Shown piece by piece: positions 13,239-63,692 of a stretch of 64,000 bases of DNA. The stretch is from Peromyscus leucopus (lineage: Eukaryota > Chordata > Mammalia > Rodentia > Cricetidae), in contig NC_051083.1 of the NCBI RefSeq assembly GCF_004664715.2, positions 122,640,971 through 122,704,970 of the forward strand, written 5' to 3'. Position 1 is the first letter of the stretch; each line of letters begins with the position of its first letter. The notes below the pieces were generated by a model. It searched no databases. It had not been told where the DNA came from and saw only the letters and a program-made list of their open reading frames with translations. A program made the translations under genes and the position numbers.

Positions 13239-13825
13239 AATGGTGCCCAACCTGTTGGCAAGAGTTTCCACCTAAAACCTGATAATATTTAATAAGCAAC
13301 TCTAAATAGAGCCAAAAACAGCTTCCTGCTTCATGTCCCATACGGGCAGTTAGACACTGCAAAACTCGGGTTTGAGCTACTGGCGGGTTCCTGGTGTTTG
13401 CACTTGACCTGCAGTATAGCAGGAATGAGGCATCTACAAGTAGCACATTATGCTGCTGCTGCTGTGTGGTGGACTTAGCCTTTGCTAGTATTAAAAAAAA
13501 AAGAGGTTTCTGGGCTACACGCTGCTTTGACAGACGCATAGACCCACTATTTCTGAGAGTTGATGACTCCCAGAGCTGGCGGAAAATGTACCATCTCCAT
13601 GTTGGGAAGCTGAAGTGGGCAGAGCCAGCAGCCACAGCGCCATTTCAGTCTTAGAATGCTGCAATTTAAAGCAATAGTCTCAAAGTAATATAAAAAATAA
13701 GCCACATAAAGATGGCTATCACACAGAGAATCTGGATTATGTTGTCTTTGATATTTGTAACTGAAGAAAAATATTTGATTTCAAAAGCTGTTGAGTTATG
13801 CCAAAATGTATATTTTAAAGGTATC
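13239..13825 (+). mobile_element. Non-coding ERVK internal region
   Basis: Begins with the primer-site-like sequence. Blocks such as GGAGCC/AGAGCCAAAAACAGCTT, CTGAAGTGGG and GGTATCT also occur, in order, in the provirus at 52377-54599, so the two are related non-autonomous elements. No gag, pro or pol homology was seen. It is cut by a minus-oriented LTR at 13826. Confidence 0.65.
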
Positions 13826-14201
13826 TAGAGTTTTCCTGCCTTGCCCACAGTCAGGACAAATCTCTGTCACCCGCCAGTCCCACAGCCACTCAGACCCAAC
13901 CAAGTAAACACAGAGACTTATATTGCTTACAAACTGTATGGCCGTGGCAGGCTTCTTGCTAACTGTTCTTACAGCTTAAATTAATCCATTTCCATAAATC
14001 TATACCTTGCCATGTGGCTGTGGCTTACCGGCGTCTTCACATGCTGCTTTTCATGGTGGCAGCTGGCAGTGTCTCCCTCACTCAACCTTCCACTCCCCAG
14101 AATTCTCCTCTCTCCTTCTCCTGCCTACTTCCAGCCTGGCCAATCAGTGTTTTATTTATTGCCCAATCCGAGCAATTTGACATACAGACCATCCCACAGC
14201 A
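13826..14201 (-). mobile_element. ERVK-type LTR (RMER17-like), inverted
   Basis: Reverse complement of the same LTR group: AGAGTTTTCCTGCCTTGCCC at the left and ATCCCACAGCA at the right. Its first bases (TGTAGC) are lost. It lies inside the internal region of the preceding plus-strand element. Confidence 0.8.
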
Positions 14202-14689
14202 GGTCACCTAACAGCATCCAGGTAAAATGGTTTTGTCAAAATTGTGCCCTTGAGTCAAACGTGAAGCAAATTTAAAATTAATGACAAAATTGGGGATGAG
14301 TGACCTTTAACAACGCAGCTAATCCATCAGCTTGATGATGTGGTACAGTTCTGGTGTCTCTACAAGCCAAAAATATACACATGAAAACAGTGTTGATGTT
14401 TCATGATACTTGAATTTAAAAAGAAGCCTAATGAAACCACAATACAATAAGCTTTAGCAAACAAACAAACAGACATATCACTTGTATTGATAAACAAAAA
14501 ATTTAAAGCCAAATCCTCCAATACTTACTAAAAATCATGGACACTGTTATTTTTACAATCACTTTCTGGGTTTAACAAGATAAAAATTAGACTATAGAGG
14601 GAATCACAAATGGAAAACACTTTTTTTTTTAAAACATCTAAGCTTGTGTTAAGTAGGCAGACCTTGTTTACATTTCAGATTAGGACTGA
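14202..14689. other. No recognised feature
   Basis: Unique-looking AT-rich sequence between the inverted LTR and the L1 3' end. Confidence 0.4.
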
Positions 14690-15671: not shown

Positions 15672-17763
15672 TGTCTTAGTTGGGGCTTTCATTGCTGTAA
15701 AGAGATACCATGACCATGGCAACTCATAAGAAAAAACATTTAATTGAGGGGGCTCACTTACAGTTTCAGAGGCTCAGTCCATTATCATCATGGTGGCATG
15801 CAGGAAGACATGGTGCTGGAGGAGAAGCTGAGCATACTACATTTTGCAGGCAACAAGATGTCAACTGAGACACTGGGCCTTTATGCTGAGCATAGGAAAT
15901 CTCAAAGCCCGCTCCCACAGTGACACACTTCCTCTAACAAGGCCATACCCACTCCAACAAAGTCATGCCTCCTAACAGTGTCACTCTCTATGAGATTATG
16001 GGGGCAAATTACCACATTCCACTCCCTGACCCCCATAAGCTTGTAACAATGTCATAATGCAGAATGCATTTAGTCCAACTTCAAAAGTTCCCATAGTCTA
16101 TCACAGTCACAACAATGTTTTAAAGTCTAAAGTTGAAAGTCCCTTCTGAGATTCATGCAATCTTTTAACTATAATCCCCTGTAAAATAAAAATTCCAACA
16201 CATAATGGCAAAGAATATGCATTACCATCCCAAAAATGTAGGGAAGGAAGCATAGTGAGAAAATACTGGACCAAAGCAAGACTGAAAACCACCTGGGCAA
16301 ACTCCAAATTCTGCATCTCCCTGGCTGATGACAAAACACTCTTCAGATCTCCAATTCCTTTCAGCTTTGTTAACTGAAACATACTTCTTTCTCTTGGGCT
16401 GGTTCCACTCCCTTTTAGCAGCTGCCCTCACCAGGTATCCCACAACTCTGGCATTTCCAACATTGCCTTGGGGTCTCCAAGACAATCCAGGCTTCAAATT
16501 CACAGCTTCACGCAATGGCCTCTCTACTAGGCCTCCATTCAGGGACACCCCTGACACATGCCTCAGTAGCTTTCTTTAGATGAGGAAACAAATTCCATAA
16601 CCTATTTTTTTTTTTCTATCCTTAACTCTAAAGTCACATGGCTGAAGCTGCCAAGTTCTGCTGCTTGCTAGGGCTGGAAAATGGCCCCCTTGTTCAATTA
16701 TATCTTCAGCAGCTTTCTGTCCTTCACTGCCTAAACTTGGCTGCCCTGAAACTTGCTCTGTATACCAGGCTGGCCTCAAACTCAAAGATCTGCCAGCCTC
16801 TGCCTTCCCAGTGCTGGGATTAAAGGTGTGCCCCACCATACCTGGCTCTAAATTTTTCTTTAGTTCCTTTTCACAAGTTGGAAACTTAGCTGGGTGGGAT
16901 AGCCCATAGGTCACCACTTCCTTTATTCCATTTCTTAATTCATTTATCTCCTTGAACACAGGACTTAACTCCATTCCACCCCCTGGCACTCTTATTTCCT
17001 CAAAATTTACATTTTGTAATCTGTCCTGCTCAGCTAGTTCCTTTTCATTATATATCTTTATAAGCATGAATACTAGTAATCACAAGACAGAGTTTATACT
17101 AGGTGATTTTGAGATTTTTTTTTCTTACAATGGAGTTAATCCAAAACTTTTCACTTTAGCCTCAGGCAGACTCTTTGGACCTTTCTTCACCAAAATATCA
17201 CAAGAATGATCTCTAGGCCATATACTAAAATTCTTCTCCTCTGAAACCTCTTGAGTTAGCCCCCAACAGTTCGAATAACTCTTAGTTAGCACTTCTGTCT
17301 TCCATGCTCCTACCAGTATGGCCTATTAAGCAGTGCTTAAAGCATTCCACTAATTTCATAGCCCAAAGTACCAAAGTCCAAATTCCTCCAAACAAAAACA
17401 TGGTCAAGCCTATCACAGCAATACCCAGTAACTCGTACCAACTTCTGTCTTAAGAGTTTTTATTACTGTGAAAAGACACTATGACCATGGCAACTCTTAT
17501 AAGGAAAACATTTAATTGAGGGGGCTTGTTTACAGTTTCAGAGGTTCTGTCCATTAACATCATGGCGGGTAGCATGGTGGCATGCAGACACAGGAAGTCA
17601 ACTGAGACACTGGGTAGCATCCTGAGCATAGGAAACCTTAAAGCCTGCCCCCTACAGTGACAGACTTCCTCCAACAAGGTCATACCCACTCCAACAAAGC
17701 CATTACCTCCTAGTAATGCCTCTCCCTATGAGATTATGGGTCAATTACATTCAGACTACCATA
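15672..17763 (-). mobile_element. ERVL-type non-autonomous element, copy A
   Basis: Direct terminal repeats of about 320-345 bp (15672-16016 and 17446-17763) flank a 1.4-kb internal part. On the minus strand the 5' LTR ends AAGACA and is followed by a tRNA-Leu-like primer site (TGGTACGAGTTACTGGGT, 17440-17423). A purine-rich tract (16034-16017) precedes the 3' LTR. These are hallmarks of an LTR retroelement with ERVL-type priming. Internal reading frames are short and resemble no viral domain. A B1 fragment sits at 16738-16847, at the same place as in copy B. No clear target duplication was found. It splits a rodent L1 3' end. Confidence 0.8.
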
Positions 17764-18296: not shown

Positions 18297-18990
18297 TGTA
18301 GCCAAAATTTTTGTTTGTTTGTTTTTTGTTTTGTTTTTTGTTTTTTGTTTTTTATTTTTCGAGACAGGGTTTCTCTGTGTAGCTTTGCACCTTTTCCTGG
18401 AACTCACTTGGTAGCCCAGGCTGGCCTCGAACTTACAGAGATCCACCTGCCTCTGCCTCCCGAGTGCTGGGATTAAAGGCGTGCGCCACCACTGCCGGCT
18501 GTAGCCCAAATCTTAAAAGGTCTTATTAATAAAAACTAACCTGGAGCCAGGTATTGGGGTGAATGCTGGAAGATCAGAGAAATAGAACAAGCCACAGCTT
18601 CCTCACCTCACCAATTCCTCAGCTGATCCTGTTTCCTCAGACTGGAAGCCTCTTAGTCCTCATCCAAATGGATCTCAGCTGAACTGCTGCTAAAAGCCTA
18701 AAAGCTTAACCAGATCTAGTTCCTGGTCCTCATGCCTTATATATCTTTCTGCTTTCTGCCATCACTTCCTGGGATTAAAGGCGTGTGTGTGTCACCATGC
18801 CTAGCTGTTTCCAGTGTGGCTTTGAACTCACAGAGATCTGGATGGATCTCTACCTCCAGAATGCTAGGATTAAAGGTGTGTGTGCCACCAATTTTTTGGC
18901 CTCTATGTTTATCTAGTGGCTGTTCTCTCCTCTGAACCCAGATAAGTTTATTAGTGTTCACAATATTTTGGGGAACACAATACCACCATA
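18297..18990 (-). mobile_element. Solo LTR with 6-bp duplication, interrupted by a B1
   Basis: Minus orientation: the right end is the reverse complement of TGGTGATATTGTGTTCCCC (here TATGGTGGTATTGTG); the left end starts TGTAGCC. Flanked by CTAATT and CTAATC (5 of 6). Two B1-like modules with GGGATTAAAGG and CTAGGATTAAAGG are part of the LTR itself. A separate B1 was inserted at 18310-18499. Confidence 0.8.
18310..18499 (-). repeat. B1 SINE inserted in LTR
   Basis: The T-rich (A-tail) side is at 18310-18358, the body starts GAGACAGGGTTTCTCTGTGT and the right end is GCCACCACTGCCGGC. TGTAGCCAAAATTTT and TGTAGCCCAAATCTT flank it as the target duplication. Confidence 0.9.
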
Positions 18991-20356: not shown

Positions 20357-20660
20357 TTGGTGATATTGTGTTCCCCAATATATTGTGCATCCTAATAAAC
20401 TTATCTGGGGTCAGAGAACAGAACAGCCACTAGATATAGAGGACAGAAAATTGTGGCACACACAATTTTGAGCAGCAGTTCAGCTGAGATCCATTCAGAT
20501 GAGTACTCAGAGGCTTCCAGTCTGAGGAAACAGGATCAGCTGAGGAATTGGCAAGGTGAGAAGCTGTGGCCTGTTCTGCTTCTCTGATCTTCCAGCTTTA
20601 ATCCAATACCTGACACTGGGTTTGTTTTTATTAATAAGACCTTTTAAGATTCATGCAACA
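20357..20660 (+). mobile_element. Solo LTR with perfect 6-bp duplication
   Basis: TTGGTGATATTGTGTTCCCC to CATGCAACA, flanked by ATGTCT at 20351-20356 and 20661-20666. It lacks most of the B1-like middle found in the copies at 18297, 26498 and 61242. Confidence 0.88.
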
Positions 20661-26384: not shown

Positions 26385-27035
26385 TGGTGGTAGTGGCAAG
26401 ATGACTCAGAAAAAGTGCTTGCCATCAAACCTCAGAATCTGAATCTGATCCTCAGAACTCAGGTGGTGAAATAACTGACTCCCAGAAGTTGTCCTCTTGT
26501 GGTGATATTGTGTTCCCCAAAATATTGTGCACCCTATTAAACTTATCTGGGTTAGAGAACAGAACAGCCACTAGATATAGATGCCAGAAAATGGTGATAT
26601 ATACACCTCTAATCCTATCACTCAGGAGGCAGAGATCCATCCAGATCTCTGTGCGCTTAAAGCCACACTGGAAACAGCCAGGCGTGGTGACTCATGCCTT
26701 TAATTCCAGGAGTGATGGCAGAAAGGTATACAAGGAGTGAGGACCAGGAACTAGAGCCTGATTAAGCTTTTAGGCTTCTGAGCACAGTTCAGCTGAGATT
26801 CATCTGGATGAGGACACAGAGGCTTCCAGTCTCAGGAAACAGGATCAGCTGAAGAACTGGTGAGGTGAGGTGGCTGTGGCCTGTTCTGCTTCTCTGATCT
26901 TCCAGCACTCACCCCAATAACTGGCCTTGGGTTTGTTTTTATTAGTAAGACCATTTAAGATTCATGCTCCTGTGCTGTGGCAATCCTTTACCAATATTCA
27001 CTTACAAAAGAAATAAACAAATGTAAAAACAAATA
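26385..27035 (+). repeat. tRNA-derived SINE split by an LTR
   Basis: The left half at 26385-26497 ends AGAAGTTGTCCTCT and the right half resumes at 26968 with TCCTGTGCTGTGG and an A-rich tail. The two halves are contiguous in the SINE consensus. Confidence 0.75.
26498..26967 (+). mobile_element. Solo LTR inserted in a SINE
   Basis: TGTGGTGATATTGTGTTCCCC to AAGATTCATGC, with flanks TCCTCT and TCCTGT (5 of 6). Internal B1-like modules at about 26580-26720 as in the copies at 18297 and 61242. Confidence 0.85.
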
Positions 27036-35890: not shown

Positions 35891-37972
35891 TGTCTTAACA
35901 TTTCTATTGCTGAGAAGAGACACCATAACCATGGCAACTCTTATAAAGGAAAACATCTAATTGGAGTGGCTCAGTTACAGTTTCAGAAGTTCAATCCATT
36001 ATCATCATGGCAGGAAGCATGGCAGCATGCAGGCAGACATGTACTGGATACAACTTGATCAGAAGGCAACTGTCACACTGGGAAGTATCTTGACCTCAAA
36101 GCCCACCTCCACAATGACATACCTCCTCCAACAAGACCACACCTGCTCCAACAACTTCAAATAGTGCCACACCCTCTGGGGCCATTTTCTTTCAAACCAC
36201 CATATTACACTCCCTGTCCCAAAGGCTTATAGCCATATCATAATGCGACAATGCATTTAGTTCAACTTCAAAAGTCCCCATAGCCTATCACAGTCTCGGT
36301 CTCAAGAATGTTTAAAAGTATAAAGTTAAAGTCTCTGAGATTCATGCAATCTCTTAACTGTAATCCCCTATAAAATCACAATCAAAAAACAGATTACATA
36401 CTTCCAACATACATGACACAAGATATACAGTACCATCCCAAAATGTAGGGAAGGGAGGAAAGTAAGGAAATACTGGACCAAAGCAAGACCAGCTAGCAAA
36501 CTCCAAATTCTGCACCCCCATGTCTGATGTCAAAATGCTCTTCAGATCTCCAATTCCTTTCAGCTCTGTTGACTGAAACACACTTATTTCTCTTGGGCTG
36601 GTTCCACTACCTGTTAGCAGCTCTCTTTGGCAGGTATCACACAGTTCTGGCATCTCCAACATCTTGGAGTCTCCAAGGCAATCCAGGCTTCAAATTCACA
36701 GCTCTACTAGGCCACCATTCAGGGACACCATAACATATGCCTGGCCTCACCAGCTTTCTTTAGGTGAGGAGGTAAATTCCATAACCCATTTCTTCTATCC
36801 TTAACTTTAAAGCCAGAACCATATGACCGAAGCTGCCATGTTCTGCTGGTTGCTAGGGGTAGAAAATGGCCCCCTAGCAATTACATCTTCAGCAGCTTTC
36901 TGTTTTTCACTACCTAAGCTTGCCTGTTCTGAAGCTTGCTCTATAGACCAGGCTGGCCTCAAACTCTGAGATCTGCAAGCCTCTGAATTCCCAGTGCTGG
37001 GATTAAAGGCTTGCACAATCACACCTGGCTCTAAGCTTTTCTTTAGTTCCTTTTCACAAGTTGGAAACTTAGCCAGGTGGATATTGCCCTGAGGTCATCA
37101 TTCCCTAATCTGTCTCTTTGAACAGAGGATTTAGCTCTATTCTACTTCCTGGTGCCCTTTTCCTCAATCTGTACATTTTGTATTTTATTTGCTCAGCTTG
37201 CCCTTTTTCATTATAAGTCTTCATCAGAGTGAACACTAATAACCACATGACAGAGCCTATACTATGCTATTTTGAAATTTCCTTTGCCAAGGGATTTAAT
37301 CCAAAACATCACTTTAGCCTAAAGCAAACTTTTCAGACAAGGGCAAAAGCAGGTGCATTCTACACCAAAATATCCCAAGACTGGTCTCTACAAACTAAAA
37401 TTTGTCTCCTCTGAAACCTCTTGAGCCAGCGTCTGGACAGTTCAAATCATTCTTAGCACCATTGTCTTCCATGATCCTACTAGTATAGCCCATTAAACAG
37501 CACTGAAAACATTCCACTGCTTTCATAACCCAAACTCTCAAAGTCCAAATTCCTCCAAACAATAGCATGGTCATGTTGGTCAGGCCTTTCACAGCAATAC
37601 CCCAGTCCCTGGTACCAACTTCTTAGTTAGGGTTTCTATTGCTGTGAAGAGACACCATGATCACAGCAACTCTTATAAAGAAAAACATTTAATTGGAGCT
37701 GGCTTACAGTTTCAGAGATTCAGTCCATTATCATCATGGTAGGGAGCATGGCAGCATGCAGGCAAACATGGTGCTGGATACATACAACTTGATCAGAAGG
37801 CAACAGGAAGTAGCCTTTCACACTGGGAAGTATCTTGAGCATATAGGAGACCTCCAACACTGCCTCCATAATGACACACTTCCTCCATCAAGACTATACC
37901 TACTCCAACAAGACCATACCTCCTAATAGTGGCCACTCCCTTTGGGGGCCATTTTCTTTTCAAACTACCACA
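35891..37972 (-). mobile_element. ERVL-type non-autonomous element, copy B
   Basis: Direct terminal repeats at 35891-36204 and 37620-37972. The minus strand shows a near-perfect tRNA-Leu primer site (TGGTACCAGGGACTGGGG, 37617-37600) after the 5' LTR and a purine tract (36220-36205) before the 3' LTR. It aligns with copy A (15672-17763) across its whole length, including the B1 fragment (here 36915-37030). The flanks CCTTG/TCTTG may be an imperfect 5-bp duplication, as expected for ERVL-class elements. No viral protein domain was recognised in the short internal frames. Confidence 0.82.
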
Positions 37973-45182: not shown

Positions 45183-46880
45183 CTATTTCTTTTAGCTCAA
45201 AAAGAGAGGATCTGGGGAAAGAAATGACATTTAAAAATGACTTGACAAACACAAGTGACCTATATGAAGATGATGTGATTTCTGAGTCTTAACTCCCATC
45301 ACAGGTTTAAGATACAAAGAAAGCCTATTTTAACACAGTCCTCTATTGTTAAATGACGAACAACTATAACCAACACGACTAAAATTCTTGTAACATTCAA
45401 AGTCAATTTCAGATGCATATGACTGTCAAAAAAGCATCATCGATTTTGAAAGAATTCATAGCCCTACCTCTAAACATTAAAACAAGTGTAAGGGTAATAC
45501 AGAACTTGGACTACATCTACTGGGCTGTGTAAGTTCCAATTAAATCTTTAATTTACTGATCTGGTGATTTAAATGTGTATACTACTAAAATAATGTGCTC
45601 TATGTAGATGACAATATCAAATGATTTACTAATCTAAGGGATTTAAAATTTTCCCTCCCCACCCCCCAAATTTAAAGCCATTTTTAGCAGTGAGAATTTG
45701 GAAATGTCTGAAGGTATATTCAGTGCAATGATTTGCAGTTTAATTCCTTGCTCTAGGCCTAGGGCTCAGACAGAACCCCTAAGAGCTTACGACACTGGAA
45801 CAATTTCTTAGGACTTACCATAGTCAGGGTTGTGCAGTAAAATGTGAGCAGCTGGACATCTTGGTTGAAACAATGAGGTCAAACCTCCCTTTAGCATTAG
45901 CAAAAGTGAGTCTCTGCAGAAATCTTGGGAGAAATGCAAAGTACCGGCAAGCTGGCACCTCAACAACTGCTGCAAATTCTACTGCATGCCCTAGCTTTGT
46001 GGGCCAGCAATGCTTAATTTTTACAGATACAATGCAGATCACTCTCAGCAAAAGAAAACTGCTTTGGGATCAACACTGCTTGTTTAATTTCAAATGTCCA
46101 AAGCCTTAAAAAAAAAATGGGGATGAAGATGTCAGTATCTTAATTTTGTACTAATGAATTTTACATGACTTGGAGACCAGTTGTTTTGCTAACATTTGAG
46201 TGTCATGTGAAAAGATCACCCTTTTTCCTACGCATTACAATTAGCTTTCTTGTCACCTTTCCCTTTTTATCACCCCAAAACAACACTTCAAAATCACAAG
46301 AACCTATGTGAAACAGAATAGGAGGTACAATGCTCTTTTACAGTCTCAGGCTAAATGTGAGAACAAATTTTAGTCACTTGCTTCAGCAAAGCATCCAGCA
46401 CACTCCATTTCCCATGGCTCTCGACAGCTTGATATGCTCAATGCCACAGGTACTAATCATCTCCACCTTCGTTTGCGTGTTTCTGAGTGAAATAAACATT
46501 TAGCAAAACCTTAACAGAGTATTGTTATGCTGACGATATCCTAAAAGGGGACATATTAAATGTGATTAATAAGCAGGAGACATTTGTGAAAGTTTCAAAT
46601 GTAGAAAAAATAAGGGCAAATTCATCCCAACCTATGAAAAATATATCAGCAATGACTTAATTAGAAATGACTGCACAAAAGGTACCAAGTTGTCAAGTTC
46701 TTAATCTATGCCAAGAGTGAAGGGGGACGCACTCAGCATTATTCTCCTTAAATGAAAAAGAAAAATAAAATAAAATTTAAGGATGAACGCTTTCTTTCAT
46801 ATCCCTGGCAGAAATAAATCCTATTCCCGCCACCACCTCTGGAAATTAAGGAAGTTGCTTCAAACAGCAAACTGTTCTAC
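45183..46880. other. Repeat-poor promoter-proximal intron
   Basis: About 1.7 kb without recognised repeats just inside intron 1. It contains a strong minus-strand donor at 45819/45818 (see findings). No coding frame with family resemblance was seen. Confidence 0.5.
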
Positions 46881-47599
46881 TTTGCTCCGTTCTTAATGTA
46901 CCCTCTGAGTAAACAGGTTAATCCAAAAAAGTCAGTAGCTGCCAGAAATCACTCCTCTTCCCCCTGCCTAACTCCCAACAGAAATACAATTCCCATTTGG
47001 GGGGAGGGGGGGCAGGGATGGGGAAAGGTGGCCAGAGGAGCTCGACTGCAGGTTAGAGCAGAAGGTCCTCTGCGAGGCTTTAGATTCAGGCTCTGCAACG
47101 CTGGTGCAGCCTCCCCGCCGTCGCTGCTGGTCCCAAGCCACCCTGCTAGCGGCCCTCGCTTTTTATCTTGCCCTCAAGGTGAGCTTGGAGGCTGAGTCTT
47201 CAAAGTTTGCCCGGCCTCTGGTCAGCAGCCACCCGCCGGGCCGAAGCTGGGACGAGGCTGAGTCCTGCTTTAGCCTCGGGCTCTCTTGGCCCCCTAGCTC
47301 TTCTTTTGGGCCACAGTGACAGATCTAGGTTTACCTCCATGTGCTCGTGGCAGAGGAAACAAAAGAAAGCTTCTTCCCTGATAATCAAACGCCATCTTCC
47401 ACTAATTGGGAAACTGAGGGATCCCCGGGGAGCCCCCCACACATATACACACACACACACACCCCGAGTTCCCCGTGTCTGCCGCTCCAAGGCGATCCCT
47501 AGTCTAGAGGCAGAGTTCCTCAGAGCCCGGAGAAGCCTAGGCTGAAAGGTCCTGGAGGCAGGGGTGGGACACCAGAGAGCCCCACCTGCCTCCCCACCC
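46881..47599. other. GC-rising shoulder of the CpG island
   Basis: GC-rich intron sequence next to exon 1, with a G-run at 46999-47013 and a short (CA)n at 47444-47462. Frames here overlap each other in several readings and look compositional. Confidence 0.55.
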
Positions 47600-47748
47600 A
47601 GGCCACCCGAAGAAGCATGCTTCCGTTAAAATGGAAAGGAGGGGGAGGGTGGCGCGTCCCACTTGATCCTCACACATCGACTAGGAAGGAGCGAAGGGGC
47701 CGGAGAGCCGGCTACCCGGGTCCGCCTGGAGCCGCGGCAAGTATACTC

Positions 47749-47750
47749 AC
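47749..47750 (-). other. Atp11c: Splice donor of Atp11c exon 1
   Basis: The exon end TTTG is followed by GTGAGTATAC on the minus strand, a strong U1-type donor in phase 0 after codon 9. Everything from here to position 1 is read as intron 1. Confidence 0.88.
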
Positions 47751-47777
47751 CAAACGATTCAAGGTCCGGCGGAACAT
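47751..47777 (-). CDS. Atp11c: Atp11c coding exon 1 (first nine codons)
   Basis: Read on the minus strand, an ATG at 47777 opens nine codons, MFRRTLNRL, followed immediately by a consensus donor (TTG|GTGAGTAT, GT at 47750-47749) in phase 0. This short N-terminus is the one I recall for the long isoform of mouse ATP11C; human is near-identical. ATP11C is a P4-ATPase flippase that, with its CDC50A subunit, moves phosphatidylserine and phosphatidylethanolamine from the outer to the inner plasma-membrane leaflet. All catalytic and membrane domains lie in later exons outside the window. The start has G at -3 and sits inside a CpG island. The mir-505 hairpin 8.8 kb downstream on the same strand, a known ATP11C intronic miRNA, supports the call independently. 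No exon 2 (expected to start CAGEEK) was found at 1-47748. Confidence 0.88.
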
Positions 47778-48502
47778 CGCGCCCGAGGCTGCGGGGTGTC
47801 AAGCGGGGCTCGTCTGGGCTGTCCGGGAAGGCGCCGTCCACAAAACACACTGCGGCGTGGGCCCGCGGCGCAAAGCGGACAGCTAGCTTGACCGCCCCGC
47901 CGCCAGCCCGCCGCCTGCCCTCCTCGCCTCTGCGCGCCCCGCCCCCGGCCGCTCGCCCGCCGCGCGCTCGCGGCCCCGCCTTCCCCGTGGCCCGCCCCCA
48001 GCCCCCGCCCGCCCGGCCCGGGGGCGGCGACCCCGTCGCTCCCCTTATCTGGCCCCAGCACCGCCTGGCGCTCCCGCCGCAGCCCGCCTAGAAGCGAGCC
48101 CGGCGCGCGGGGGAGGGATGGTGGACGTGCGCTAGGCTTTCCCTGCGGGAGGGGGGCGCTCCAGTCTCCCCGTCAGCGCCTTCCACTCGTCCTGCTGCTA
48201 ACCCCCCGGCCGACTCCCCGCTAGCTTCGGCGGACGCCCCTCTAGGGCGTCCCCGCGCCTCGCCTGACACTGTTCCCAGGTGTCTGTGAGGAGCTACAGT
48301 CTCCCTCACCCCGGCCCTAACTCGTCTGCTTCGCCGCTTCACTCGCAGCCCTTCGTCGGCCCCGCGCTTTCGCCCAGCACTTTGGCTGAGGAGAGCCTCG
48401 GCGCGGCCCACCTCGAGGCCGCCGGGCGCCCCTGCCTCCTGACCAGGAGTGGCAGCTCACTAAGGAAACACTCGGGACTAACGGGCGACTGAGGAGACCT
48501 TA

Positions 48503-48540
48503 GCGCGGGCGGGGCGGGGCGCGGCGCGGGCGGCGGGAGT
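48503..48540. promoter_or_regulatory. Cluster of GC boxes (Sp1/KLF type)
   Basis: The run GGCGGGGCGGGGC at 48508-48520 and adjacent GCGGCGCGGGCGGCGGG give overlapping Sp1-type sites on the upstream side of the Atp11c CpG island. Another GGGGCGGG lies at 48755-48762. Confidence 0.6.
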
Positions 48541-48560
48541 AGTTACAAAAGCCGCCCCCT

Positions 48561-49385
48561 CCTAGGTTACAAACAGGAGAGGCCCCCCCCTCGGTTCCCA
48601 CCTACATGGTCTTCCCTTTCTCGTATTTTGGGTTTTTCTGGTTTTTCCCTTGGTTTTGGTTTTCTTTCGTCCAGCTACCCCACCTAAGCCCTCTTACTTC
48701 CACTTTCTCTGGGAGGTTGTAAAGTCGGGCTTTGTGTCGTTGCTACTGCGCAGCGGGGCGGGATTTCCCTGCCACCCTCTCCTAGATCACCCGCCCTTTT
48801 CAATGTTCCTAGTGCACCCTGGGAGTTGTAGTCCAACAGTCTCTCAGCCGGCTACTGCGAGCTGGGAGCTCCCCCATATGCCCGGCTAGGGTTTGCTCAT
48901 AGTGTTGAGAAGGAAGCTGCGGGGACTTAAGGGCCAAACCAAGGTTCTCCTTACCATCTGCGTGCGGAAATCAGAAACACTGGGTAGATTCTTAGCTGTG
49001 CGAAATGTGATGAGAAGGATAAAGTACATAAAGTTCTGAATGCTGAAAACCTTACCCAGAACTCGACATTTACTCCGCGTTAAGTCCTGCACGCCCTCAA
49101 CTTGCTAACTTTAAATTGCAATGCACAAAAGTTTAAAACTTAAAAATGAAACCTTGGTCAAGAATTCCCTTGAGCCTGGATAGCTCTACCCGCTCCCACC
49201 CCTTTTTCCACTGCTCTCTAAGGCGGGGCCCTAGGCTATGAGCTGAGAACTTTCGAATTCTTCTATAAACACTTTAAAGAAGTGAGTAAAAGGAGTTCTT
49301 TAGAAAGAGACAAGTTCTCCTGCCAGCCTAGAAGGGTTGTGTGAAGTCCTGAAGGGCTTTCATTGTGAGGCTAGGGTACTTCCCA
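48561..49385. other. Atp11c upstream flank
   Basis: Holds the SBS-like motif (48819), a GGGGCGGG box and a good minus-strand donor at 48955/48954. Otherwise unassigned. Confidence 0.45.
48819..48832 (-). promoter_or_regulatory. ZNF143/Staf (SBS)-like site
   Basis: The minus strand reads ACTACAACTCCCAG followed by GGTGCA. The core matches the ACTACAAYTCCCAG element bound by ZNF143, typically found close to transcription start sites. It lies about 1 kb upstream of the Atp11c ATG and may belong to a secondary or bidirectional start. Confidence 0.6.
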
Positions 49386-49389
49386 TTTT

Positions 49390-49760
49390 ACCCCCTGAAG
49401 GTTAATTGATTTCAACCAGCATTTACTGGATGTTTTCTTTCTAGATGCTGGATACAGTGATGTATCAAAAGACCTCCTCAGCAGGCTGGCTGCAGTGACG
49501 TTACAAGGAACAAACACGTGAAATCTACAGGTTAGAATGTAATGGTTTCTAATGCCAAAGGAAACAGAGGAGAGGATAATGCCTTTAAAAAGAATCTGGG
49601 AAGCTTTCCTGAAAACCATGAAATTTTCATTGGGTCAAGCCTATAAAACAGAGCTGCTGGAGATTAACCCAGGCCTTGGAATGTGGGAAGGCTTTGGAGG
49701 ATCCCAGGGAACAAAGTCCTGGGTAGAGAGGGAGAGGTCAGTTGGAAAGTACAGGGCAAC
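49390..49760 (+). repeat. L2 relic
   Basis: CCAGCATTTACTGGATGTTTTC, TAGATGCTGGATACAGTGATG, GGGAAGCTTTCCTGAAAACC, AGGCCTTGGAATGTGGGAAG keep the L2 order. Overlapping frames on both strands are not genes. Confidence 0.65.
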
Positions 49761-49764
49761 CTAA

Positions 49765-50184
49765 GAAAAAGAACACAGCCACTCTGTCAAGGCAGGAACC
49801 GGGACACATGTGGGCGGGACATTACAAATGAAAGCTAAAACCCCAAAGCATCCTTAGAAACAAGCTATGAAGTCTGACCTTGTTTCTGTGATCAAGGAGA
49901 AGCCCAACCACAATAAAGTACGAATGCAGAAGATTTAAATTAGTTCCTAAATGGTCCTAACTGCCCATAGGTAAAATCAACCATTTCTACTTTTGCTATA
50001 CTATGGCTCCTCTGTTTCCCCACACTTAAGGATATGTCAGCGATTTTTAAGAAATCTTAAATTTGTAGTAATTAGATATTAGGATATTTAATTGACAACA
50101 CAGATCTAAGATTGTGCTCTCTACCAAAGAATTGGTTTTAAATACAGTTGGTTTTTTTCCTAGCTATACTTTTATTGAACACAA
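49765..50184. other. No recognised feature
   Basis: Unique-looking intergenic sequence. Confidence 0.4.
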
Positions 50185-52376: not shown

Positions 52377-54599
52377 ATTTGGCATACCAACACAGGGCTC
52401 TCCAATTTCCATAAAGCCTAAAAGAGTTTTAAAGGAGCTTCTAAACCACAATAATGGAGCCAAAAACAGCTTTCTACTTCATGTGTCATGTGTGTTGAGA
52501 TATAGAGACGCCAAGGTACAGAGATGCCATGGCATGCAGACTTGAGCTACAGTATGATGAGTTTACAGCATGTGTGCTTGAGTGCAGCATGGCAGATTCC
52601 AACCACTCTACACAATGGTATCTGCAAGCCGCACAGCATGGTGGTGGATATAGCTTTTGCTAGACCAAAAAAAAAAAAAAAAAAAGAAAGGAAAAAAAGG
52701 TTTTTAGGCTATACATTGCTAAATGGAAGCATAGACCCACTGCTTCAGAGAGTCAGCAATGAGCATGGTTCCCCCAGAACTGGCAGTAAACATACTTCTG
52801 CCATATTGGGAAGCTGAAGTGGGAGGAATCAGCAGCCAAGGCTTCTCTTCAGTACTAGCCACTGCAGTTTAAAGCAATAGATTCACAATAAGACAGATTC
52901 AGATGGGATAAACCCTAAACAGTTTACAGTGTGTGTAAAAAATGTATGTAGACTTGGAAGAGAGAGGAAAAGGAATATAGACTATTATATAAAGAAATAG
53001 AAAGTTTTAAAAAATAAAATCTTTAAAGAGAAAGTAAAAGTAATATAAAAATAAGCCATGTAAAGATGGAAATCACACAGAGAGTCTGGGTTATATTGTC
53101 TTTGGGATTTTTAACTGCAGAGAGACATTTGATTGTAAAGGCTACTCAGTTAAAACAGTATGTATATTTTAAAGGTATCTTGACTTAAAAATTTGGATCT
53201 AAGGATATGTTGCATTGGAAAAGAGGCTTTGCTTATATTTCCACAGGAAGCAAGGGGCTATGGATTTGTTCCAGCTTAAGATGGATCAGATTTGATCAAG
53301 CCAGACCTCCTGAACCTTAACAGATGGTACCTATCAACAAAGGTTATAGCTGGTCTTCCTAGGACTTGACCATAACTCTTAATTTTCTCAGGATCCCCAT
53401 TAGATTGCCAGCAACCTCATACAGCAGGAAGTAGTATGAGAAGCTACACCCAAATTCCCAAAATATTGTTTATGAATGTATATTTTTATTTAAAGCAGGT
53501 TGATTATAAATATAATCTCTTTCTAAAATAGAAAAAGGGATAGTATAGATATGGTGGGATAAAAGGGTAGATTAGTGAATCTACTTTTAAAGAGCAACAA
53601 CTTGTTTAAAATGTTTTCCATTGCTATGGATTTTAGTTTATTGATACAAATTTAAAGTAGATTTTGTTATACTATATGTATATTTCTACTCTTGTTTAAA
53701 GTATTTTGTTATGCAACTCATTTGAAATTGTAGTGTATAGTTGAGAAATACAGATTAATAATTAGTCATCTATGATATCAAATTTATAGTCATGTTAGTT
53801 AAGCTTTCTAGGTATACATAGATACATTTCAATTAGGTAGGTAATCTTCAAACACTTCAAAGACCTATAGAATATGGCATTTAAAATGTTTTAAAAACTT
53901 AGACTTTCTGAACATTGAGACATGTCTGCTCTTAGAAGCATCAGTCTACTTCAGAGAAAATAATGGGCATTGAAGAAACTTATTATGGAGTTTGCTTTCA
54001 ATATGGCAAGAGTAGCCATTTGGGCAAGAAACTGCTCTTGCCTGGACTGCTTTACAGTATGCTGTATAAACTGGACATGCAGGACCCATAGGAAGGTGAC
54101 CACTGAACTTTGCAAGGTGAGATGGTCCTTCAGGTTCCTGCTTCACAGAGGAGACTGCCAGACATTCTATAGAACACAAGAAGAAGCAACTGAGAGACTC
54201 TAGGTCTGCAGGCTGAAAATGGATTCCCCAACATTGCAGAAGAACTTTGGATGAACTGTCCAGGCAGCCAGCTGTCACTATCATTTCCAGAATTTTGGAA
54301 GTTGCTTAAAATGCATTTCCTGTTTACTTAGGTAATACTATATTACTCTGGGGTCCTTGATGTAGTTGAATACTAGATAGTTATAATTATAGTTTTCCTT
54401 AGTCATGATAAAAGATAAATTATATGTGAAACTTTAGACTCACAAATATAAGATAAATAGAATATTTGCTTTGATTTTGCCAAATATAAATAGACTAGAT
54501 ATTGTAACTATAATTCTTGCTTGATAACTGTTCTATTATATGTAATATTACTATGTTAAAGTTAAAACCTTCCTTTTTGATTAGACAGAAAGGGGGAAA
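52377..54599 (+). mobile_element. Non-coding internal region of ERVK provirus
   Basis: 2.2 kb between two LTRs of the same type, ending in the purine tract AGACAGAAAGGGGGAAA. No gag, pol or env homology was found, so this is a non-autonomous element that would have needed proteins in trans. Blocks are shared with 13239-13825 and with the minus-strand internal region at 61706-62729. Confidence 0.78.
54586..54599 (+). other. Polypurine tract
   Basis: CAGAAAGGGGGAAA directly precedes the TG of the 3' LTR. Confidence 0.8.
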
Positions 54600-55358
54600 T
54601 GCTGCGAAATGGTCTTTCTGTACACTGTAAATATATGTTGCTCTCATTGGTTGATAAATAAAGCTGGCCAATGGCAAGGCAGAATAAGGATAGGCAGTAC
54701 TATCAAACTGAAGATAGAGATGGAGAAGGGTAGAGTTGGGTCAGATGCCAGCCAGACACAGAGGAAGCAAGATGAGAATGTTGTACTGAGAAAAGGTACC
54801 AAGCCACATGGCTAAGCATAGATAATAATTATGTGCTGTGGGACGGTCTGTATGTCAAATTGCTCTGATTGGTCAATAAATAAAACACTGATTGGCCAGT
54901 GGCCAGGCAGGAAGTAGGTGGGACAAGGAGAGAGGAGAATTGTGGGAAGCAGAAGGCTGACGCGGAGAGACACTGCAGCCGCCGCCATGCCCAGCAGCAT
55001 GTGAAGACGCCAGTAAGCCACCAGCCACGTGGCAAGGTATAGACTTATGGAAATGTATTAATTTAAGCTATAAGAACAGTTAGCAAGAAGCCTGCCATGG
55101 CCATACAGTTTGTATGCAATATAAGTCTCTGTGTTTACTTGGTTGGGTCTGAGCGGCTGTGGGACTGGCGGGTGACAAAGATTTGTCCTGACTGTGGGCA
55201 AGGCAGGAAAACTCAAGCTACAATTATGGGTTAATTTAAGTGTAAGCACTACTTAGTTAGTAATAAGCCTGAGCTATCGGTCCAGCATTTATAATTAATA
55301 TTATGCCTCTGAGCGGTTATTCCAGAACTGGCGGGTGGGAGAGAACTGTCCAGTTACA
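54600..55358 (+). mobile_element. 3' LTR of ERVK provirus, split by a solo LTR
   Basis: The left part TGCTGCGAAATGG to GATAATAATTATG (54833) and the right part GGGTTAATTTAAG to CCAGTTACA (55358) join into one LTR matching 51979-52376. They are separated by a younger LTR. Confidence 0.85.
54834..55222 (+). mobile_element. Younger solo LTR nested in the 3' LTR
   Basis: 389 bp, TGCTGTGGGACGG to CAAGCTACA, flanked by perfect 6-bp duplications ATTATG at 54828-54833 and 55223-55228. Contains GATTGGTCAATAAATAAAAC and GCCGCCGCCATGC. Confidence 0.95.
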
Positions 55359-61241: not shown

Positions 61242-61705
61242 TGTAGCACGAATCTTAAAAGTTCTTATTAATAAAATCAAACCTAGAGCCAGGTATTGGG
61301 ATGAATGCTGGAAGATCAGAGAGGTAGAACAGGCCATAGCCACCTCACCTTGCCAATTCCTCAGCTGATCCTGTTTCCTCAGACTAGATGCCTCTCAGCT
61401 GAACTGTGCTGCTCAACAGCCTGAAAGCTTAACCAGGCTCTAACTCCTGGTCCTCACACCTTAAATACCTTTCTGCTTTCTGGCATCACTTCCTGGGATT
61501 AAAGGCATGTGTCACCATGCCTGGCTGATTCCACTGTGGCCTTGAACTCACAGAGATACAGACGGAATTCTGCCTCTGGAATGCTAGGATTAAAGGTGTG
61601 GGTGCCACCATTTTCAAGCCTCTGTATCTAGTGGCTGTTCTGTTCTCAGACCCCAGATAAGTTTATTAGGGTGCACAATATTTTGGGGAACACAATATCA
61701 TCACA
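61242..61705 (-). mobile_element. 3' LTR of a minus-strand ERV
   Basis: Starts TGTAGCACG (left) and ends AATATCATCACA (right). Same family as 18297, 20357 and 26498, with two embedded B1-like modules. The reverse-complement polypurine tract AAAAAAGGGGAAA (61718-61706) abuts it, so this is a 3' LTR, not a solo LTR. Confidence 0.85.
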
Positions 61706-62729
61706 TTTCCCCTTTTTTGTCTAAATTTAAAAAAGCTTATAACTAATGCAAGAGAAACTATATTCAATAAGTATATGCAATATATAGTCAAGAATTACAT
61801 TAACAATGTCTAGTCCATTAACATTTGACAGATTCAGACAAAAACTCCATTATATATATTAACAATGTCCAGTCCAGTAACATTTGATAAACTCAGACAA
61901 AAAAATTTTCATTGCTTATCCTATGTAAAACAAGTAGTTCCTTTTTAAAAGTAGATTCAATAATTGACCTTTTTATCTTATCATATCCATATTCTCTCTT
62001 TTTTCTTTTCATAATAGATTCAATAATCTACCTTTTGTCATTTTTATATCTTCCGCTTTTTCTTTCTAGAGTGGATTCACTGATCTACCCATTTATCCTA
62101 TTATTTCTTTATCTTTTTTCTCAGAGTAGATTCAATGATCTACCTCATATCTATATTCTCTTTTTTTTCTTTTTCTTTTTTTTTCAAACAAGAACTCTGA
62201 ATCTAATCTCCTTGTTCAGCTTTTTTCCTGACCATTAACAATTAACTTGTAACCAACCATTGTAAACAATGACAATCATCCATAAGCCATTGAATGACCA
62301 AAAAACAAACAAAAAACAAAAAAGAAAAACACCTACCCCACCTCTTGGGAATATGGGCGTAGTTTTCTTAAAATTACTTCCTGCTTTCTGGGGGTGAAGA
62401 CATCTTTAGGGGATCCTGAAAAGAAAATTTGTGGGTTAATTGTTAAGTCCTGGGAGAGGTAGCTGTATCATTTGTTGTCCAGTCTCTTCATAATGGGAAA
62501 ACGTAGGGCTTGTCTCAAGTCTTTGCTCAAGTTGTCTGTGAATCTGGATCATCTCAGCTAGCCATCTCGAAATTGTCCTGAGCATTTTGTAGTCCAAAGC
62601 CGATCTTTCCCTGGTGTTAATCAGCTTAATGGCTTTACCATAGTCCATGTGGAATCATCGTTGTGGGGTCCTGTTATCCTTTTGAAGATTTCAAAGTTGC
62701 TGTTAGACATGGTCATGGTTCCCTGCAGA
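61706..62729 (-). mobile_element. Internal 3' part of a minus-strand ERV
   Basis: Carries the polypurine tract and sequence related to the provirus at 52377-54599 (shared TTTTC...AGGATCCCC block followed by GCAGGAAGTA). Contains a two-copy repeat (61802-61903) and a four-copy imperfect repeat (61945-62165). A 70-codon minus frame at 62436-62648 reads DYGKAIKLINTRERSALDY; I do not recognise it and treat it as a possible gag/env remnant at best. Confidence 0.65.
61945..62165 (-). repeat. Four-copy imperfect ~60-bp tandem repeat
   Basis: Units start near AGTAGATTCAATAATTGACC, ATAGATTCAATAATCTACC, GTGGATTCACTGATCTACCC and GTAGATTCAATGATCTACC, each followed by a pyrimidine-rich spacer. Confidence 0.75.
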
Positions 62730-62826
62730 TTTTTTTTCTTTTCTTTTTTTCTTTTCTTTTCTTTTCTTTTCTTTTCTTTTCTTTTCTTTTCTTTTCTTTT
62801 CTTTCCTTTCCTTTTCTTTTTTCTTT

Positions 62827-62859
<33 letters not shown>

Positions 62860-62890
62860 CTTTATTTATTTATTTCTTCCTTTCTTTTTC
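62730..62890 (-). repeat. A-rich (AAAAG)n/(GAAA)n microsatellite at retrocopy 3' end
   Basis: The plus strand shows (CTTTT)n, (CTTT)n and (TTTA)n. On the minus strand this is an A-rich tract directly downstream of the Tgfbr1 retrocopy, so it is probably the expanded and mutated poly(A) tail of that insertion. Confidence 0.75.
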
Positions 62891-62911
62891 TGTGCCTCCT
62901 CTGTAATTTGG

Positions 62912-63200
62912 AGCAGTCATAGTCTGATAAATGTGTCTCTCTGAACCATGAACGTTCTTTCCTAGAGGAGAAAATCTTCACAGCAATTTCTCCCCAACAT
63001 TTGTCTTACCAAATTTTTCCAAACTGACCTTTACCGATGCTTTCTTGTAACATGATGGCCCTGGCAATTCTTCTCTGAACAAGCAGCAGTAAACCCTTCA
63101 TCCCAGGTAGCAACATCACAGCAGTCACCAACATGATGAGAAGAAGCCAGTGACTCAAAGCAGTAGCCACTGCCTCCATGGTCCCACCAAAGCTTTCATC
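62912..63200 (-). pseudogene. Tgfbr1-ps: Tgfbr1 processed retrocopy, exon 1 joined to exon 4
   Basis: Minus strand: GGTGGGACC then ATG (63179) and a degenerate TGFBR1 signal-peptide segment ending LLPGMK. After 63095 it passes directly into the kinase start: GLLLLVQRR, then [14 protein letters not shown] with the glycine-rich ATP loop, then AVKIFSSRKERSWFRE. Functional TGFBR1 has a cysteine-rich ectodomain, one membrane helix and the GS box between these parts; all are absent here. The junction falls at the exon 1/exon 4 boundary as I recall it, with the split codon still Gly (G|GT). The frame is broken by TAA just after GKIW and by a codon loss, and homology ends near 62912 beside an A-rich tract. 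The lack of introns and the A-rich 3' end indicate L1-mediated retroposition of an exon-skipped mRNA. It is not functional. ACVR1B is less likely because IGKG is preceded by QES and the region after ATG matches Tgfbr1 exon 1. Confidence 0.85.
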
Positions 63201-63283: not shown

Positions 63284-63692
63284 TGCTGTGGGATGGTCTG
63301 TATGTCAAATTGTTCTGATTGGTCAATGAATAAAACACTGATTGGCCAGTGGCCAGGCAGGAAGTAGGTGGCCAGGTAGGAATTAGGTGGGACAAGGAGA
63401 GAGGAGAATTCTGGGAAGCAGAAGGCTGAGGCAGAGAGACACTGCCAGCTGCCGCCATGACCAGCAGCATGTGAAGATGCCGGTAAGCCACCAGCCATGT
63501 GGCAAGGTATAGATTTATGGAAATGGATTAATTTAAGTTATAAGAACAGTTAGCAAGAAGCCTGCCACGGCCATACAGTTTGTAAGCAATATAAGTCTCT
63601 GTGTTTACTTGGTTGGGTCTGAGCGGCTGTGGGACTGGCAGGTGACAGAGATTTGTCCTGACTGTGGGCAAGGCAGGAAAACTCTAGCTACA
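63284..63692 (+). mobile_element. ERVK-type solo LTR (RMER17-like) with perfect duplication
   Basis: 409 bp, TGCTGTGGGATGG to CTAGCTACA, flanked by ATAGCC at 63278-63283 and 63693-63698. It is 20 bp longer than the sister at 54834 because of a tandem duplication around 63352-63391. Confidence 0.95.

Follow-up and report, generated by a model that had tools for sequence, protein, structure and literature searches.

A piece of Tgfbr1 mRNA in a dispersed LTR-element family of Peromyscus leucopus

Host-gene capture by LTR elements is already known. Acute transforming retroviruses carry host kinase genes. In LTR-mediated retroposition, attributed to Tan et al. 2016, spliced host RNA is said to be reverse transcribed together with an LTR element, leaving a copy flanked by LTRs. 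A passage of PMC8232201 cites this process. Deer mice, for their part, harbor non-autonomous ERVK-like families related to mysTR, as described in the main text of PMC10089650.

The feature considered here lies on the minus strand of a window, by which we mean the whole stretch of 64,000 nucleotides that was analysed. The original prediction took it for a retrocopy, made at this locus, of a Tgfbr1 mRNA lacking exons 2 and 3. That view was not borne out: the locus is a member of a dispersed LTR-element family. With a probability of about 0.93, we regard the feature as a copy, damaged at its 5' end, of an element from a non-autonomous LTR retrotransposon family that carries a captured piece of Tgfbr1 mRNA. 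The tentative label class II/ERVK-like, which we give the family, rests on the length of the target site and on the primer-binding site.

How does this element compare with the systems above? Like the mysTR-related families, it is LTR-bounded and abundant in a cricetid host, has no room for gag or pol, and has had its internal sequence replaced by unrelated sequence while a conserved region stands before the 3' LTR; the likeness is one of description, and the main text of PMC10089650 mentions neither capture nor TGF. As in acute transforming retroviruses, a host kinase mRNA lies inside LTRs in place of viral genes. Unlike them, the element has nothing of the host protein beyond the signal peptide and the beginning of the kinase N-lobe, and it is a germline family that implies no infectious virus. 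From LTR-mediated retroposition it differs in that the chimera became a multi-copy transposon family of fixed architecture. With the processed retrocopies made by L1 it shares an intron-less copy of host mRNA; it differs from them in spreading as an LTR element, with target duplications outside the LTRs. A literature search that included passages of PMC10089650 and PMC10521431, subscription papers being mostly outside its scope, returned no mammalian LTR family with a piece of growth-factor-receptor mRNA.

Parts of the window copy

An ATG at 63179 opens a frame of 57 residues, in which a signal-peptide-like segment is followed by 29 residues before a stop. Searched against the PDB, the second half of this frame matched TGFBR1 (E 1.2e-7) better than ACVR1 (5e-4) or BMPR1B (8.5e-4). 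In blastn with a human TGFBR1 coding sequence, c.574-753 matched 63095-62921 (78%, E 1e-36). Two further matches, each weak alone (E 0.98) and collinear with the first, placed c.1-52 at 63179-63128 (71%) and c.1101-1129 at 62915-62887. Frame, blastn and PDB search together confirm the prediction that a signal-peptide-like segment runs straight into the start of the TGFBR1 kinase. In tblastn the kinase match reached back over residues 141-192 at low identity; blastn shows nothing there, and we take this part for a run into unrelated sequence.

Because of the match to c.1101-1129, we read the copy as running on into the end of exon 6. The same assignment draws on this region in 30 loci, on the parental sequence and on a relative of the window copy, whose second PDB stretch, itself weak, aligns VIAPNHRGGTKK with TGFBR1 DIAPNHRVGTKR. 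The original prediction missed the exon 6 sequence, down to 62887, and the repeat nature of the locus. The piece contains two internal junctions. The first, between exons 1 and 4, lies at exon edges; the second, between exons 4 and 6, lies off them, is in frame and shows a two-base overlap, AT, judged by eye. The TGFBR1 kinase domain is incomplete, with part of exon 4 and a few exon 6 residues present and the catalytic core missing. The parts are listed in Table 1.

Table 1. Features of the window copy and its surroundings (positions in the window; a slash marks a candidate splice point)
Feature	Position	Strand	Remarks
Tgfbr1 5' UTR remnant	63180..63188	-	GGTGGGACC directly before ATG; GGCGGGACC in parental gene
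Tgfbr1 exon 1 coding part (signal peptide)	63095..63179	-	ATG at 63179
Tgfbr1 exon 4 part (kinase N-lobe start)	62921..63094	-	In-frame stop at 63008-63006; small deletions farther on
Tgfbr1 exon 6 end (c.1101-1129)	62887..62915	-	Second internal deletion, in frame and off exon edges, links it to exon 4
A-rich tract	62730..62886	-	Expanded into AAAG/AAAAG microsatellite in window copy
LTR-element 3' internal region	61719..62729	-	By sequence comparison
Polypurine tract AAAAAAGGGGAAA	61706..61718	-	
3' LTR, 464 bp, TG...CA	61242..61705	-	Same family on both sides of most other fetched copies
Unrelated solo LTR, inserted upstream of Tgfbr1 piece	63284..63692	-	Target duplication GGCTAT at 63698-63693 and 63283-63278
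Candidate splice donor AAAG/GTCAGT in exon 4 piece	63023..63032	-	AAAG/GTCGGT in parent, AAAG/GTCGAT in human
Candidate splice acceptor TTTTCTTTTCAG/G in 3' internal region	62415..62427	-	

Of the element, the window copy retains the Tgfbr1 piece together with the 3' region and 3' LTR; the leader and an adjacent 5' LTR are missing. With a stop at codon 58 and small deletions, it is a dead, 5'-damaged member of the family. Since near-full matches between its LTR and those of other copies reach only about 71-85% identity, we regard it as an old or divergent member. Sequence upstream of it matches the window itself (L001) and one other locus, L002, and none of the other 28 of the 30 loci that were fetched from the genome. 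L002, found 117 kb away on the contig of the window copy (C21), shares 98-99% identity with that copy in all parts, the solo LTR included; it is a near-identical duplicate, produced by segmental duplication at the window locus.

An LTR with the start of a leader at 66733-66192, past the window end and 3 kb off, was considered as the missing 5' end. We rejected it because its LTR is only 62-66% identical to the LTRs of the family, whereas the Tgfbr1 piece is about 90% identical. This LTR (L031 4163-4704, about 2.2-2.7 kb past the window end) is an older one of the same kind, and with its similar leader start it is apparently a separate insertion.

Other repeats are scattered over the window. 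The solo LTR has further family members at 54834-55224 and 13821-14203. The 3' LTR of the Tgfbr1 element likewise has three more relatives, solo or partial and 80-91% identical, at 18500-18988, 26498-26968 and 20358-20660, the last flanked by ATGTC/ATGTC (5 bp, possibly 6). Remains of another ERV-like LTR element occupy 53335-54599 (+), and a different LTR then begins near 54601. The roughly 0.77 kb before the LTR of the window copy (62477-61706) is related to the 3' region of that element: comparison scores were 54, 48 and 43, against a best of 22 in 100 shuffles that kept base content only. Two stop-to-stop frames at 16107-16427 and 36354-36689 (-) have similar translations (KGIGDLKS...) and represent a further repeat. 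G+C content is 0.51-0.54 at 46001-50000 and 0.34-0.44 elsewhere, a possible CpG-island promoter of a host gene.

The family in the Peromyscus genome

A first look at the window's genome gave 1,735 candidates. Forty of these were scored (1,695 were unscored), and all 40, the window itself included, contain the piece at E 4e-103 or better, on many contigs. The best 30 were fetched; because the ranking followed similarity to the window, these 30 are not a random sample. The piece is about 88-91% identical to that of the window in L003-L030 and 98% in L002.

Matches to the window LTR flank the piece on both sides in most of the 30 loci. By self-comparison, 25 loci have an LTR pair, aligned over at least 450 bp in 20; the five without a pair include the window and L002. 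The order is LTR, primer site, leader, Tgfbr1 piece, 3' region, LTR. Near-full elements measure 2,295-2,496 bp, with a leader of 178-224 bp, and at 2.3-2.5 kb are too short for gag and pol. The primer site TGGCGCCCAACG, putatively that of tRNA-Lys, lies directly or soon after the 5' LTR in 14 of the 25 loci, and near variants occur in others; the leaders, which start with this site, also contain a stretch resembling a B1 SINE. Purine-rich ends precede most of the 3' LTRs inspected, in keeping with the polypurine tract of the window copy, and at the place of its A-rich tract other copies also have A-rich or CA-rich runs.

The near-full elements carry target duplications, of 6 bp in 10, 7 bp in 6 and 5 bp in 1, with none in 3 of the 20. 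Flanks paired across different loci served as a control: 6-7 bp were found in 5 of 380 such pairs, versus 16 of 20 at own loci. Under strict LTR ends the counts were 2 of 380 and 15 of 20. Duplications of 6 bp are a class II feature, and those seen here fit class II/ERVK. An initial assignment of the LTR to ERV-L (MT2-like) was dropped in view of the 6-bp duplications and the primer site, both of which argue otherwise.

These loci thus combine what marks an LTR retrotransposon (direct LTR pair, primer site and polypurine tract, target duplication) with host exons that lack introns and lie between the LTRs at many loci. Identity within LTR pairs runs from 82.2 to 100%, with a median of 98.1; it is at least 99% in 9 of 20, and one pair is identical throughout. 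Identical LTRs mean very recent insertion, and the family has been very recently active in one of the two genomes discussed here. Among viral contigs, 65 pattern matches were found and none was confirmed; a protein search with the internal frame 62648-62436 gave no candidate, and a literature search by short LTR strings gave no name for the LTR.

Could the copies have been dispersed by segmental duplication, or within a larger repeat, instead of by LTR retrotransposition? L002 is one such case. The other fetched copies lie on many contigs and are mostly bounded by LTR pairs, and target duplications are found at their own loci far above the cross-locus rate, so as an account of the spread this is very improbable. 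An ordinary processed retrocopy, made by L1 at the window locus from an exon-skipped mRNA, is hardly credible either. The piece is intron-less and an A-rich tract follows it, as such an origin would predict. It ends, however, inside exon 6 and not at the 3' end of the mRNA, and it lies within LTR elements. Both the first join and the exon 4-exon 6 region are present in each of the 30 fetched loci, mostly in LTR-bounded elements, and the first join is found again in every one of the 120 Scotinomys teguina protein models described below, the best of 474 matching proteins. The window copy and these models also have derived replacements in common.

The leaders bear on the nature of the captured RNA. 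Six were tested against the parental 5' UTR. In L008 and L021 the alignment covers the last 64 nt of this UTR, and in L014 the last 35; in L004, L005 and L017 the best local alignment starts farther out and mixes with the SINE-like part. Tgfbr1 5' UTR before the ATG indicates that the source was an mRNA, including its 5' UTR.

Origin of the exon 1-exon 4 join

The parental Tgfbr1 gene of the same genome extends onward from C2:58433660. Its exons 1-6 end at c.97, 343, 574, 805, 973 and 1130, with GT and AG flanks read. A region of 60 kb around parental exons 2-3 gave matches to exons 1-8, each preceded by AG and followed by GT wherever the flanks were read. The original prediction had placed the human exon edges at c.97 and c.575, and the parental edges agree; edges c.806 and c.973 also appear in passages of published work. 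Parental exon 1 ends in CTACCGGGGACGGAGG, followed by gtgagc, and exon 4, preceded by ag, starts with GTTTACCATTGCTTG. At the join the copies read CTACCTGGGA(C/T)GAAGG followed by GTTTACTGCTGCTTG, or close variants; GAAGGGTTTACT is present in 25 of the 30 loci, and the remaining five differ by 1-2 bases.

Scored against the parent over 30 copies and 36 bases each, the join fits best at c.97/c.575, tied with one base to the left, c.96/c.574 (887 of 1,080 matches each; the next position has 859). For the window copy alone against human, the best cut leads by only 34 to 33. Exon 1 is thus joined to exon 4 at the parental exon edges, and the skip of 477 nt keeps the frame, as had been claimed.

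One alternative is that normally spliced Tgfbr1 cDNA was captured and that exons 2-3 were lost later, by a deletion or polymerase jump that happened to land on exon edges. The second join is just such an in-frame jump, off the edges and with an AT overlap, and the first is fixed only to within one base. Coincidence would be rare: on the human coding sequence, random internal deletions fell on a pair of exon edges in 73 of 1,142,316 cases (about 6e-5), or in 2 of 1,034 at a length of 477 nt, which upholds the earlier view that a chance deletion was unlikely. Nor was an intermediate found. Human TGFBR1 residues 34-191, encoded by exons 2-3, were searched against the whole genome, with 18 of 18 candidates scored and six places matched. 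Parental exons 2-3 account for two, at C2:58466222-58466470 (96%) and C2:58470549-58470809 (90%, with one stop when introns are ignored in the reading), separated by 4 kb; the other four, on C4 and C18 at 40-45% identity, look like related receptor genes. Close matches thus occur in the parent only, and no copy of the piece with exons 2-3 was found in this genome. We consider later deletion improbable.

Skipping of exons 2 and 3 is the best source for the first join, as one ancestral event. The predicted source, a transcript with exon 1 spliced to exon 4, therefore stands insofar as the RNA was spliced and the join lies at exon edges; it does not stand as an event local to this locus. As an event in the ancestry of the element, the skipping tells us nothing of how Tgfbr1 is spliced today, and the literature search returned no TGFBR1 splice variants near c.97/c.575.

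For the captured-mRNA reading, the following course of events can be proposed. During reverse transcription there would have been a jump between two templates, packaged element RNA and a Tgfbr1 transcript whose exon 1 had probably been spliced to exon 4. In this way Tgfbr1 mRNA would long ago have taken the place of the middle of the element, contributing its 5' UTR, exons 1 and 4 and, following an internal deletion, the last part of exon 6. Such a chimera would have retained the signals needed in cis (LTRs, primer site and polypurine tract) and would have spread by means of proteins from an autonomous relative, a putative helper element. We think it most likely that the Tgfbr1 piece itself is only carried along as a passenger.

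Scotinomys models and the fused frame

A protein search with the 57-residue frame returned four hypothetical proteins of Scotinomys teguina with the same fusion. A profile search gave 474 proteins at E<=10, of which the best 120 are all from this species; they are predicted proteins only, from a search that cannot return long proteins. The fusion core is present within 4 edits in all 120. Immediately ahead of the join 119 of them have a codon for K or N, exon 4 proline 194 is retained in 32, and PK_Tyr_Ser-Thr is found at E<=0.001 in 15. The exon 4-exon 6 continuation appears in 43 models, 10 of the IYQT(V/M)IAPN type and 33 in a shortened form, and 29 models match the 3' internal region of the window (62760-61720).

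Several replacements are common to the window copy and these models and absent in the parent and in human: R215Q (60 of 79), E218K (46 of 70), V229I (40 of 59), A246T (43 of 46), V373G (5 of 6) and R225W (29 of 58). Such shared replacements imply a common ancestor after the capture, and they count against a view of the window copy as a single, isolated retrocopy. The host genome and the Scotinomys copies also each have variants of their own. Judged from these sequences, the capture is common to at least two rodent genomes.

Is the fused frame itself of use, as an exapted or selected product of the element, either a small secreted peptide or a signal-peptide exon donor? All 30 loci have the ATG and, read in register, none has a stop in codons 1-57, although a shift at codon 10 closes the real frame of L014 after 17 residues. 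Nearest neighbours have a pN/pS of 0.54 and distant pairs one of 0.58, values that give no sign of older constraint overlaid by recent decay. Selection on the frame thus left no clear signal, in a set biased to similar copies; choosing copies by similarity, and models because they are gene models, favours intact frames.

A second line of evidence comes from where the Scotinomys models leave the Tgfbr1 sequence. In 58 of the 120 this happens right after GK, and 56 of these 58 continue into a residue with a G-first codon. Such exits would fit a single donor, AAAG/GTCAGT, in which GTCAGT is one base from the parental GTCGGT. Tails that would fit the candidate acceptor are few, the KDVFISRKQE type in 5 of 120 models and the LKMS type in 4 (3 by a stricter pattern), and one model runs into NELFCD. 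Against exaptation, the Scotinomys annotation mixes transcript-backed and ab initio models, so some may be artefacts and the GK exits are a lead, not a demonstration; a non-receptor Pfam domain occurs in only 1 of 120. Together with the pN/pS values, this makes an exapted frame improbable. We think it unlikely, too, that the family acts as a mobile first-exon donor, with LTR-driven transcripts carrying a signal peptide that ends in the candidate donor. If the donor reading is true, copies with identical LTRs suggest that exon donation may still go on, and a new insertion could provide nearby host exons with a secretory leader.

For annotators there is a warning: at least 120 Scotinomys gene models contain the Tgfbr1 piece. 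For the family itself, two rodent genomes offer many datable copies of one capture event whose parental gene is known, so that the capture, the loss of the receptor middle and the spread could be ordered in time.
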